From contig BPJV01000014.1 in NCBI GenBank assembly GCA_026004795.1, positions 1-47,427 on the forward strand: a stretch of 47,427 nt of DNA, in the 5' to 3' direction. The notes beneath the pieces were generated by a model. It made no database searches. It was given only the letters and a program-made list of their open reading frames with translations, and was not told the DNA's origin. Within the stretch, counting starts at the first letter, position 1. Each line of letters opens with the position of its first letter. This document shows positions 40,062 through 41,900 of this stretch, one piece after another. A program made the translations under genes and the position numbers. The stretch comes from Pirellulaceae bacterium (GTDB lineage: Bacteria; Planctomycetota; Planctomycetia; Pirellulales; Pirellulaceae).

Positions 40062-40292
40062 GAACTCAGAACTAAGGCTACGCTGGAGGTCATCGCGAAA
40101 CACGATTCCGTCCTGCGCCCCGGCCGCTACGTCGGCCGCGCCGATGTAGCGGCCGATGTCGAAGACGACGGCGAACCGTTCGAGGAAACGATACAGCGGC
40201 TGACGTCCGAGCTGTCCAAGTGCCTGTCCGAATCGGAATCGCTCGCCGCGCAGATCAAGGCAAATCTGGAAGGGCTGGGTTATGGCGGGTAG
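40062..40292 (+). pseudogene. hsdM 3' fragment (type I methylase C-terminus), copy 1
   Basis: An open frame of 76 codons without its own start, from the TGA at 40059-40061 to the TAG at 40290-40292. It reads LRPGRYVG near the start, then FEETIQRLTSEL, and ends LAAQIKANLEGLGYG, which is the C-terminal end of type I restriction-modification methylases (HsdM: the TPGRYVG segment and the helical tail ending NLEGLGY). The catalytic NPPY domain is absent, so it is a remnant. The TAG stop is embedded in ATGGCGGGTAG, where the following ATG is the usual start of hsdS in such operons. Confidence 0.8.
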
Positions 40293-40302
40293 TCGGACGA
40301 TT

Positions 40303-40377
40303 GAAAACACAGAGGCACAGAGAGCACGGAGAAGCGGACGTGTGGTAAGCTCTGTGTTCTCCGTGCCTCTGTGTTTC
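40303..40377. repeat. 75-bp palindromic element, copy HP1
   Basis: Imperfect inverted repeat. The right arm is 21 bases ending CTCTGTGTTTC; the left arm begins GAAAACACAGAGGCAC and repeats the GGAGAA core after a short insertion. The centre is about 23 bases. It lies 11 bases after the first hsdM stop. Three further copies are at 40493-40567, 40985-41061 and 41176-41249. The arms differ by a few bases between copies, while the centre varies more, as expected if the stem is under selection. Confidence 0.9.
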
Positions 40378-40396
40378 AAAACCTCCCGGCGCGCGA

Positions 40397-40482
40397 CCGA
40401 GCTGTCCAAGTGCCTGTCCACATCGGAATCGCTCGCCGCGCAGATCAAGGCGAATCTGGAAGGGCTGGGTTATGGCGGGTAG
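40397..40482 (+). pseudogene. hsdM 3' fragment, copy 2
   Basis: Copy of the last 28 codons of hsdM (ELSKCLSTSESLAAQ and so on to LGYGG and stop). With the palindrome that follows it, it is a tandem duplicate of 40207-40378 with period 190 bases and about eight differences in 172 by eye. It has no start of its own and is continuous, through HP1, with a frame that starts at the ATG in copy 1. Confidence 0.85.
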
Positions 40483-40492
40483 TCGGACGATT

Positions 40493-40567
40493 GAAAACAC
40501 AGAGGCACAGAGGGCACGGAGAAGTGGACGCGTGGTAGGCCCTGTGTTCTCCGTGCCTCTGTGTTTC
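40493..40567. repeat. 75-bp palindromic element, copy HP2
   Basis: Second copy of the palindromic element, with the same left arm (GAAAACACAGAGGCAC) and right arm (CTCTGTGTTTC) as HP1. It ends 20 bases before the ATG of the GxxExxY gene, so it forms the left boundary of that gene, and its right arm provides an alternative in-frame GTG at 40561. Confidence 0.9.
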
Positions 40568-40587
40568 AATTCCATTGCGAGCACATC

Positions 40588-40965
40588 ATGAATACCAACG
40601 ACCTGACCAGTGCGATCATCGGTGCGGCCATCGACGTTCACCAACGGCTCGGCCCGGGACTTCTCGAATCGGCCTACCGCGTTTGTCTGGCGTACGAACT
40701 GCGGAAACAAGGCTTCGAGGTGATTGAGGAACAACCTATTCCGGTGGTTTATGACGACGTCAAACTCGAATGCGGATTCCGGGCGGACCTGATTGTGAAC
40801 AGACAGGTCGTGGTGGAATTGAAAGCAAAGTCAGCCATTCATCCGGTGGACAAGGCACAAACGCTGTCCCACCTGAGACTGATGGGGCTGCGCTTCGGGC
40901 TGTTGATCAATTTTCATGAGGTCAAACTGGTGGACGGCGTTCATCGGATTGTGAACGGGTATTGA
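40588..40965 (+). CDS. GxxExxY protein (PD-(D/E)XK nuclease superfamily)
   Basis: 125 residues. The name motif G-x-x-E-x-x-Y is seen in LGPGLLESAY near residue 25. A PD-(D/E)XK-type nuclease core follows: the Asp in GFRADLIVN and the ExK in VVVELKAK. The tail LMGLRFGLLINF is conserved in the family. The biochemical role of this family is not established. The gene is intact and lies between two copies of the palindromic element (HP2 20 bases before it, HP3 19 bases after its stop). The ATG at 40588 is chosen because upstream residues only translate the arm of HP2. Compared with the hsdM and integrase scraps around it, it is the only complete gene in the island. Confidence 0.9.
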   Translation: MNTNDLTSAIIGAAIDVHQRLGPGLLESAYRVCLAYELRKQGFEVIEEQPIPVVYDDVKLECGFRADLIVNRQVVVELKAKSAIHPVDKAQTLSHLRLMGLRFGLLINFHEVKLVDGVHRIVNGY

Positions 40966-40984
40966 GATGGAAGACCGGACGATT

Positions 40985-41061
40985 GAAAACACAGAGGCAC
41001 AGAGGGCACGGAGAAACGGCCGCACGATCGGCTCTGTGTTCTCTGTGTCTCTGTGTTTCAG
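40985..41061. repeat. 75-bp palindromic element, copy HP3
   Basis: Third copy, 19 bases after the stop of the GxxExxY gene. The left arm starts GAAAACACAGAGGCAC as in HP1; the right arm has CTGTGTCTC in place of CCGTGCCTC, so it is the most diverged copy. It leads without a gap into the third hsdM fragment. Confidence 0.88.
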
Positions 41062-41080
41062 AAAAACACCGCGGCCGGCC

Positions 41081-41157
41081 GAGTTGTACGAGTGCCTGTC
41101 CGAATCGGAATCACTCGCCGCGCAGATCAAGGTGAATCTGGAGGGGCTGGGCTAAGG
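41081..41157 (+). pseudogene. hsdM 3' fragment, copy 3
   Basis: Another copy of the hsdM tail (ECLSESESLAAQIK and so on), with an early TAA at 41155-41157 in place of the TAT GGC GGG TAG end of copies 1 and 2. It differs from them in more places, so it split off earlier or decays faster. Confidence 0.8.
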
Positions 41158-41175
41158 CGGGTAGCCGGATGATGG

Positions 41176-41249
41176 GAAACACAGAGGCACAGAGGGCACG
41201 GAGAAGCGGACGCGTGGTAGGCTCTGTGTGCTCCGTGCCTCTGTGTTTC
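41176..41249. repeat. 75-bp palindromic element, copy HP4
   Basis: Fourth copy, with left arm GGAAACACAGAGGCAC and right arm CTCCGTGCCTCTGTGTTTC. It marks the right edge of the repeated part of the island; the sequence after it has no similarity to the other units. Confidence 0.88.
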
Positions 41250-41328: not shown

Positions 41329-41604
41329 TTTCAGAAAGTCGGCTGGCAGCGGACCTACAACCCCGAACTCGGTCCGGCAGACAACAAATCGGCGCGTGAG
41401 GTGATGCAAGATGACACACCCAAGCTAACGCTGGACACCTACGGCCACCTATTCCCTGGACAAGGGGCCGACGTGGTGGAACATATGCGGGGGATGCTAA
41501 ATAATTCTGACGACGAACCGCGCAGCCCGGCGGCAACCGCCACCGAGGACGCAGTTGCAACCGCTGAGCACGATTGCAGCGCGCAGCAGTTGGCGCAGCA
41601 TTAA
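41329..41604 (+). pseudogene. Tyrosine recombinase/phage integrase C-terminal fragment
   Basis: A frame open from 41329 to the TAA at 41602-41604. The part from 41404 reads TPKLTLDTYGHLFPGQGA, the C-terminal box of tyrosine recombinases that holds the nucleophilic Tyr (usually in TMDTYGHLF). The upstream catalytic Arg and His boxes are missing, so this is a 3' remnant of an integrase gene. The residues before 41404 do not resemble an integrase, which points to a recombination joint there. Confidence 0.75.
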
Positions 41605-41900
41605 GGATACGAGACGACGCTTTTCGGTGCGCCTGGGCGCAAAAGCGAATCAGTGCATCCAGCACCAGAGAAAAAGGATAAGTCCTTGCTAGTTGGCGAC
41701 TTGGGCGATGCTATGCGACGCCTCGCGAGTGCGTGCGAAAGCACAGCGGAAGCAACGGTCTTCATGAACACTCTCGGATCTGGCCAATCGCCGACTATCT
41801 TTGCCACTCACGTGTCTAGCGGGTTTACCTAGGTCCCTCGGTCACCATCAGCAAACGCAATGGCATCACTTTCAGGCAACAGGCGGAGCAGGTTCTTGTG
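41605..41900. other. Spacer between integrase scrap and MprF gene
   Basis: 296 bases. No gene, tRNA or obvious attachment site was found. The composition resembles the region that follows. Confidence 0.4.

Follow-up and report, generated by a model that had tools for sequence, protein, structure and literature searches.

The GxxExxY gene in a 47,427-nucleotide stretch of DNA from a Pirellulaceae bacterium (contig BPJV01000014.1 of assembly GCA_026004795.1, positions 1 to 47,427; hereafter the window) probably forms, together with the terminal inverted repeats (TIRs) on its two sides, a small mobile element of typically 0.4-0.6 kb, whose protein recognises the heptads at its own ends. The structure of the unit, its spread over phyla, its presence or absence at orthologous sites, its gene-deleted copies and the covariation of protein and repeat were all observed, and from these we infer binding, nicking or cutting, and mobilisation. 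As a rule, a GxxExxY gene has at each end a TIR of about three heptads, of the form C-R-C-R-R-A-G.

The association between gene and repeat was measured by a motif-free TIR score, defined as the best inverted match between a segment around the gene start and a segment around the stop. A score of at least 14 was found for 92 of 126 GxxExxY genes (90 of 124 distinct ones, two proteins being duplicates) as against 8 of 398 control open reading frames (ORFs) of 90-260 aa from the same loci, and a score of at least 16 for 78/126 versus 2/398. From the later set of 90 genes 6 partial and 5 duplicate genes had been dropped; 17 came from loci fetched earlier and already present in the test of repeat types described below. 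Of the 73 strictly new genes 54 scored at least 14 (66 of 90 with the earlier fetch included). The same threshold was reached by 45 of 50 distinct genes at loci of the planctomycete phylum and by 44 of 73 genes from named genomes, including one of two methanogen loci. An earlier scan across the gene had given 43/75 genes against 8/286 controls (75 of 80 loci, those with short flanks being dropped). A first inverted-repeat scan near the genes, now superseded, returned a weak signal (score of at least 12 in 13/79 upstream and 11/77 downstream, control 44/1237), because it sought hairpins on each side and not repeats spanning the gene. For the 79 of the 92 cases that were anchored, the unit has a median length of 485 bp (range 399-859). 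By eye its ends commonly read TTNACC...GGTNAA, with T at -3 in 50/79; since ACC served as the anchor, only the outer letters of this pattern count as a finding.

The spelling of the repeats was followed in the best 80 GxxExxY loci of a scan of named genomes, which belong to Planctomycetota, Bacteroidota, Cyanobacteria, Chloroflexota, Acidobacteria, Verrucomicrobiota, Gemmatimonadetes, Proteobacteria and two methanogens, among others. Of these 80 loci 76 were used, those with short flanks being dropped, and in 63 of the 76 the motif CRCRRAG-N1-4-CRCRRAG stood no more than 400 bp from the gene, at some 20 times the far-flank density and mainly in + orientation upstream of the gene and - downstream. 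Within the phylum TIGR04256 was detected in 112 of 246 genomes and the exact arm CACAGAGNCACAGAG in 47, with 0-55 exact arms per genome among the 246. The arm occurred in 40/112 genomes with a GxxExxY gene versus 7/134 others (p 8e-10); at four or more copies the numbers were 20/112 versus 4/134 (p 1e-4), and 4/112 versus 2/134 (p 0.4) for the reversed control motif. Thus the enrichment of the palindrome near GxxExxY genes that a preliminary description of this DNA would lead one to expect across genomes is indeed there; the palindrome also turns up at a distance from the gene, as well as in certain genomes where no GxxExxY gene was detected. Could the genes merely sit in repeat-rich intergenic DNA? 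The reversed motif does show some excess near the genes and in genomes with GxxExxY, as such a coincidence would have it, but the control ORFs (8/398 against 92/126) refute it, and the motif orientation, + upstream and - downstream, together with the residue code set out below makes it next to impossible.

The type of protein and the type of heptad vary together. Proteins of the GLLE type (122) were accompanied by AG heptads in 98 cases and by AT/AA heptads in none (2 ties, 22 without a run), those of the GFLE type (21) by AT/AA in 14 and AG in 2 (5 none), and the nine of other types by AG in 2 and AT/AA in 2 (5 none). Among strictly new genes with a TIR score of at least 12, GLLE gave 23 AG to 0 (7 none), GFLE 10 AT/AA to 1 AG (4 none), and other types 9 AT/AA, 3 AG and 2 none. 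As both heptad types occur within one genome (e.g. that of the window, and G180), base composition is not the explanation. Moreover, protein identity was correlated with arm similarity in 70 of the 92 elements, pairs at or above 80% identity being excluded (Mantel r 0.41, 0/2000 permutations, n 70; 0.40 after removal of GC).

A column scan of 58 GLLE elements related the variable bases of the heptad to individual residues: R2 followed residue 124, R5 residues 7 and 8, and R4 residue 4. Once these residues had been picked the code was written down, and then 80 more loci were fetched; the test set consisted of 20 strictly new elements, most of them from other loci of the genomes already sampled in the discovery set. 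All four relations went in the pre-stated direction. The fraction of A at R2 was 0.0 with N124 (n 2), 1.0 at the chain end (n 9) and 0.35 with G124 (n 5); at R5 it was 0.0 with T7 (10) and 0.58 with S/A7 (10), and 1.0 with K/N8 (3) and 0.17 with E/G/S/R8 (14); at R4 it was 0.89 with N4 (15) and 0.30 with E/D4 (2). Independent sister pairs were then counted in the pooled 80 elements, on a tree from which the tested columns had been left out. They gave 9 predicted and 0 opposite changes for R2 and residue 124 (N versus chain end; 10:0 with 8 unchanged when G is grouped with N), 9:0 for R5 and residue 7 (6 unchanged), 10:1 for R5 and residue 8 (2 unchanged) and 8:2 for R4 and residue 4 (2 unchanged, p 0.055). 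Such repeated joint change of residue and base is not easily accounted for unless there is physical recognition, and from these sequence comparisons it appears very probable that the GxxExxY protein recognises the repeats. The window protein, with N4, T7, S8 and G124 beside heptads with R2 = A and R5 = G, is consistent with the code where the code speaks.

What is conserved is a word and not a stem. The two arms of an element are mismatched at about 1% of the fixed heptad letters, 10% of R2, 6% of R5, 25% of R4 and 33% of spacer positions; the low rates are partly a product of selection, since arms were chosen by similarity and heptads by pattern. Free of that effect is the kind of mismatch, which was G.U-compatible in 102 cases and A.C in 107, showing no G.U bias. 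This variation suits a DNA-binding site that serves both ends better than it suits an RNA hairpin. Selection acting on the hairpin as a unit was rejected as the main reading, because the spacers are not kept paired and a G.U bias is absent. The suggestion in the preliminary description that the palindromes may be substrates of the GxxExxY protein survives in part: the covariation speaks for an action of the protein on the repeats, binding at the least, but the conserved feature is the heptad word in the TIRs and not the hairpin.

Judged by its profile scores the window protein is a full member of TIGR04256 (136.5 bits, cut-off 35) and PF13366 (129.5, cut-off 22), and PDDEXK_3 alone was matched in Pfam. 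It is predicted to have a remote Cas4/RecB-like PD-(D/E)XK nuclease fold and the corresponding activity. The structure model has a pLDDT of 95.4 and a pTM of 0.88, and its nearest Foldseek matches are Cas4 (4r5q, 4ic1) and lambda-type exonucleases, at a TMq of 0.50-0.57, the best E of 3.6e-3 falling short of 1e-3; Pfam Cas4 is matched weakly, at E <= 0.1, by 35 of the 71 family members, with a lowest E of 7.7e-4. In an alignment of the window protein with 70 of 75 full-length relatives D67 and E77 are invariant in 71/71 sequences and K79 is kept in at least 90%. E27, D67, E77, K79, Q91 and Y95 are the invariant or near-invariant positions, which we take to be compatible with the RecB/Cas4 motif set. 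The PD-(D/E)XK fold assigned from the letters at the outset is upheld by model and alignment. No match was obtained in the PDB by sequence up to E 1, among PADLOC defence models up to E 1, or in phage records at 1e-5, and PHROGs gave a single weak match to a family of unknown function. The window protein matched no known transposase family in Pfam or PHROGs, and Transposase_17 (Y1/HUH) was not among the Pfam matches of the 71 relatives. Matches were found in eight plasmid records, and viral contigs, in a scan limited by a pattern, yielded three relatives. At three loci (L030, L032 and L036) the start codon lies within or before the upstream repeat, so that N-termini like MNHRDTETQR are translated repeat arm.

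A protein that bound the repeats to regulate its own transcription, in a unit that it does not move, would also produce a residue-base code, since binding requires no cleavage. We consider such an operator improbable, given that the same repeats stand inverted downstream of the gene and that D67 and E77 of the active site do not vary. Moreover, as described below, gene-less units exist elsewhere, and at orthologous sites the whole unit occurs in some genomes and is missing from others.

In the window the gene is embedded among partial copies of hsdM and four palindromes (HP1 to HP4), in the order hsdM remnant, HP1, tail copy 2, HP2, GxxExxY gene, HP3, tail copy 3, HP4:

40080..40292, + strand: hsdM 3' remnant, tail copy 1 (C-terminal ~70 codons, stop at 40290-40292; by comparison with the HsdM C-terminus)
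40305..40376, no strand: HP1, gene-less palindrome with three-heptad arms (folding, alignment)
40396..40493, + strand: hsdM tail copy 2, repeating copy 1 (alignment)
40495..40566, no strand: HP2, directly upstream of the GxxExxY gene (folding, alignment)
40588..40965, + strand: GxxExxY gene, 125 aa, predicted PD-(D/E)XK fold (TIGR04256, PF13366, alignment, model, Foldseek)
40987..41058, no strand: HP3, directly downstream of the GxxExxY gene (folding, alignment)
41078..41175, + strand: hsdM tail copy 3 (alignment)
41176..41249, no strand: HP4 (folding, alignment)

This order and these coordinates, claimed before, were reproduced on re-measurement, and so were the four copies of one palindrome and the three copies of the same hsdM end. 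The palindromes, of about 72 bp each, share 91% mean column identity, and each folds (DNA parameters) better than all of its 200 shuffles, with z between -4.4 and -7.1; their left arms consist of the three heptads CACAGAG-CACAGAG-CACGGAG. The tails share 89% mean column identity. Family models of hsdM did not match the tail alone; its likeness to the C-terminal end of an intact HsdM encoded at another place in the genome (35 of 69 aligned positions identical) identifies it as the end of hsdM. Further on, at 41398-41605, an open stretch containing TLDTYGHLFPGQGADVVEHMR resembles, by eye only, the C-terminus of a tyrosine recombinase, which gives the neighbourhood the appearance of a graveyard for gene ends.

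The 5.59-Mb genome to which the window belongs contains six matches to TIGR04256 above the cut-off, one of them with internal stops. The arm pattern, with up to three mismatches, was matched 24 times (reversed-pattern control 1), and 22 of the matches form three clusters with a GxxExxY gene within 1.9 kb in each; the other two are at C11:40948 and C4:182490 (two mismatches), and three of the six genes lie outside the clusters. At locus L010 (C1:697500-703500) elements occupy two gene junctions, hsdM/hsdS and hsdS/hsdR, in a type I restriction operon that appears to be intact; its hsdM, its hsdS and the start of an only partly read hsdR were confirmed by Pfam. The first junction holds a palindrome, beyond which 66 nt of the hsdM end are repeated; before hsdR come a palindrome, a short piece made of the hsdR start and the hsdS end, and then palindrome, GxxExxY gene and palindrome. 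The flanking gene ends are duplicated over 43-96 nt while the ORFs remain open. Three tandem element copies with CACGAAT-type ends were seen at C1:753502-756849. The GxxExxY gene there (C1:755002) is of a different subfamily with ends spelled CACGAAT, and both outer copies lack, by eye, the middle of the gene, which is what early gene-less derivatives should look like.

Mobility is suggested by sites that are filled in some genomes and empty in others. At a Nostoc locus the element is present in 6/8 genomes and absent from 2/8, and at an Empedobacter locus, after the end of one gene and before the following one starts, it is present in 2/14 and absent from 12/14; comparing empty with filled sites, as had been proposed, thus revealed presence and absence of the unit at orthologous positions in both genera. 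A record of Bacteroides finegoldii has a unit between radA and the following gene. In addition, several genomes contain scattered units that have the same ends but no gene, their loops measuring about 15-170 bp. At one locus (L271, in G185) a unit of the CACAGAG type encloses, by eye, a nested ATTACGCAGATT-type hairpin, which looks like the insertion of one element family into another.

The neighbours of the element have a preferred orientation. For the 96 of 126 genes with a neighbour within 700 bp on both sides the arrangements '+[+]+', '+[+]-', '-[+]-' and '-[+]+' numbered 62, 26, 7 and 1, as compared with 136, 51, 24 and 36 in 247 background triples. Elements avoid divergent promoters, run along operons and lie downstream of genes, and their transcription would probably start from host promoters. 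Such a position, with 62 '+[+]+' against 7 '-[+]-' of 96, would also suit an element acting at the level of RNA, like the intervening sequence (IVS) of 23S rRNA, whose repeats pair in the transcript, are excised by RNase III and whose protein binds RNA. The architecture is shared as well, the Coxiella IVS being a small ORF in a TIR loop of about 0.4 kb according to the excerpted text of PMC4990558. The arms, however, show no excess of G.U over A.C (102 vs 107), and their spacers are 33% mismatched against about 1% for the fixed heptad letters. Rfam found no family at the gathering threshold in the window, and one tRNA and no rRNA across 16 other loci. Taken together this renders an RNA-level element quite improbable.

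If the unit is a DNA element, as we prefer, the GxxExxY protein would bind the heptads at both ends, with helix 1 (residues 4, 7 and 8) and the C-terminal tail (residue 124) tracking the variable bases, and would probably nick or cut there. Host repair, replication or recombination may then copy the unit elsewhere or excise it. HP1 to HP4 would be gene-less, ends-only derivatives, comparable to REPINs (hairpin-forming pairs of repetitive extragenic palindromic, REP, sequences) or to miniature inverted-repeat transposable elements (MITEs). Such copies could be acted on in trans and provide substrates for recombination, and homology between palindromes would permit the local duplication that gave the repeated tail and palindrome of the window. 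Recognition is the well supported part of this scheme, judged from covariation; cutting and movement are what we would add to it.

Several observations weigh against a self-mobilising element. The reversed control motif is also enriched, both by genome (at least one copy in 20/112 GxxExxY genomes versus 5/134, odds ratio 5.6, p 5e-4), so that the association of arm and genome partly reflects general repeat richness, and by position (7 in 88.6 kb near the gene versus 6 in 449.8 kb far from it, the motif being much rarer). A TIR of score 14 or more was absent from 34 of 124 distinct genes, and the heptad run was not seen in 22/122 GLLE and 5/21 GFLE genes. Four genomes (G039, G156, G220 and G245) carry 8-26 exact arms with no GxxExxY gene detected, which may reflect either incomplete assemblies, gene loss or another helper. 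In G004 the sole GxxExxY gene detected has, by eye, CACAGAT-like ends (the heptad run counter scored none), and its 53 exact arms are of the AG type. As to the code, G124 gives a mixed R2 and N124 occurs in just 2 new elements; a rescan of 22 later elements (the 20 strictly new and two fetched earlier) ranked other columns higher (84 for R4, 2 for R5) and was incomplete for R2 (z undefined for some columns), so that the residues of the code are candidate contacts. In a sample of 20 places in Nostoc G254 (L323-L342) single arms TCTCACGCAAAGGCGCAAAGGCGCAAAG lie, by eye, within other repeats, one such family being bounded by GGCGTTGCTGATT...TGCAACGCC. No short target duplication was seen, direct repeats of 2-10 nt at the ends equalling random pairing (n=79). 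The junctions of the empty sites were unreadable, with flanks 77-91% alike and an intergenic part that could not be aligned, and transposition was not observed. Among the matches listed from 299 Flavobacterium genomes, G423 and G505 have the flank pieces 64-66 bp apart at about 74% identity. The long tail duplication was considered as a general target duplication and rejected; it is real at a few loci and not a rule. Direct repeats scoring at least 25 outside the palindromes were found in 5/65 short and 5/111 long element spans versus 12/2280 random positions, the spans overlapping and L086 and L010 being one locus.

These points invite the view that another enzyme, or host slippage and recombination, moves the repeats and that GxxExxY is a co-adapted passenger or a maintenance factor (e.g. 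for palindrome resolution). The four repeat-rich genomes, the single arms in unrelated Nostoc repeats, the want of a known transposase family and of a target duplication, and the local duplications of tail and palindrome, which resemble recombination, all agree with it. Its difficulty is that the covariation is specific to subfamily and residue and holds on independent pairs, which indicates tight co-adaptation, and that a unit of median 485 bp fits just one small gene. We regard it as unlikely and retain the mobile element as the better account.

A second gene family follows the same plan. The four-helix-bundle (S23/IVS-type) genes of TIGR02436, taken as a control at loci L168-L197 (28 of 30 used, the ORF not being found in the rest), had a TIR score of at least 14 in 20/28 cases, against 0/31 control ORFs there. 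Their end words have a period of 7-8 and another spelling, e.g. AGTGGTTAGTGG and TAGTTGTTAGTTGTTAG, with CRCRRAG in 1/28. Independently of this, three of the eight high-scoring control ORFs of the GxxExxY loci, picked blindly, proved to belong to TIGR02436 (L095:650-997, L106:1187-1546 and L167:2569-2961). Excerpts of the literature mention heptamer repeats preceding the S23 ORF of the Coxiella IVS (PMC4990558) and inverted heptamer repeats in Xanthomonas (PMC4692102). This points to the four-helix-bundle genes as a second class with analogous, differently spelled ends. It is tempting, with chances somewhat short of even, to see GxxExxY as the founder of a distinct class of mobile elements, in which a single Cas4-like nuclease reads the tandem heptads of its inverted ends by a simple residue-to-base code and spreads the element and its gene-less palindromes without a known transposase, the S23-type genes being a parallel class. 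The family is common, in 112/246 genomes of the phylum as well as in many other phyla and archaea, and the repeat link and the code make one testable system out of an orphan family and unnamed genomic repeats. Odd N-termini such as MNHRDTETQR would also be explained.

In open-licence papers we found no function for GxxExxY and nothing relevant on the repeat sequences, the arm peptides or PF13366, and a prior report elsewhere is possible; the term GxxExxY itself occurs in PMC8934634, in an unrelated passage. Compared with known systems, the relation to Cas4/RecB-type nucleases is remote, the window protein having 125 aa against 202-215 aa for the matched chains. MITEs and small insertion sequences share the TIRs and the internally deleted, gene-less derivatives, whereas the GxxExxY element has neither a match to a known transposase nor a detected short target-site duplication. 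Nearest in shape is the 23S rRNA IVS of Coxiella, as outlined in the excerpts of PMC4990558, a unit of about 0.4 kb with a short ORF in a TIR loop. The GxxExxY protein, however, is not an S23 four-helix bundle (that of the window matches TIGR04256/PF13366), its elements lie between protein genes in the cases examined, no rRNA was found by Rfam in the window, and the arms vary without a sign of RNA pairing.

The closest parallel in function is offered by the REP-RAYT systems (RAYT, REP-associated tyrosine transposase), where, according to the excerpted part of PMC2817692, a small gene stands between two inverted palindromic repeats that also occur as dispersed gene-less copies. GxxExxY genes are likewise flanked by two inverted repeats (90/124 distinct genes) and accompanied by gene-less copies, and in the genome of the window 22 of the 24 looser arm matches are beside GxxExxY genes, the figure to be set against REP copy numbers. 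What would be compared with the GT(A/G)G head beside the REP palindrome is the pair of ends TTNACC...GGTNAA, as read by eye. RAYT is an IS200/IS605-like Y1 HUH tyrosine transposase, whereas GxxExxY has the predicted PD-(D/E)XK fold, its ends carry tandem heptads, and it is spread over many phyla. The resemblance to REP elements with their RAYT noted in the preliminary description is therefore apt as an analogy and does not extend to membership, there being no Y1/HUH transposase; REP-RAYT is the best functional analogy for the GxxExxY element.

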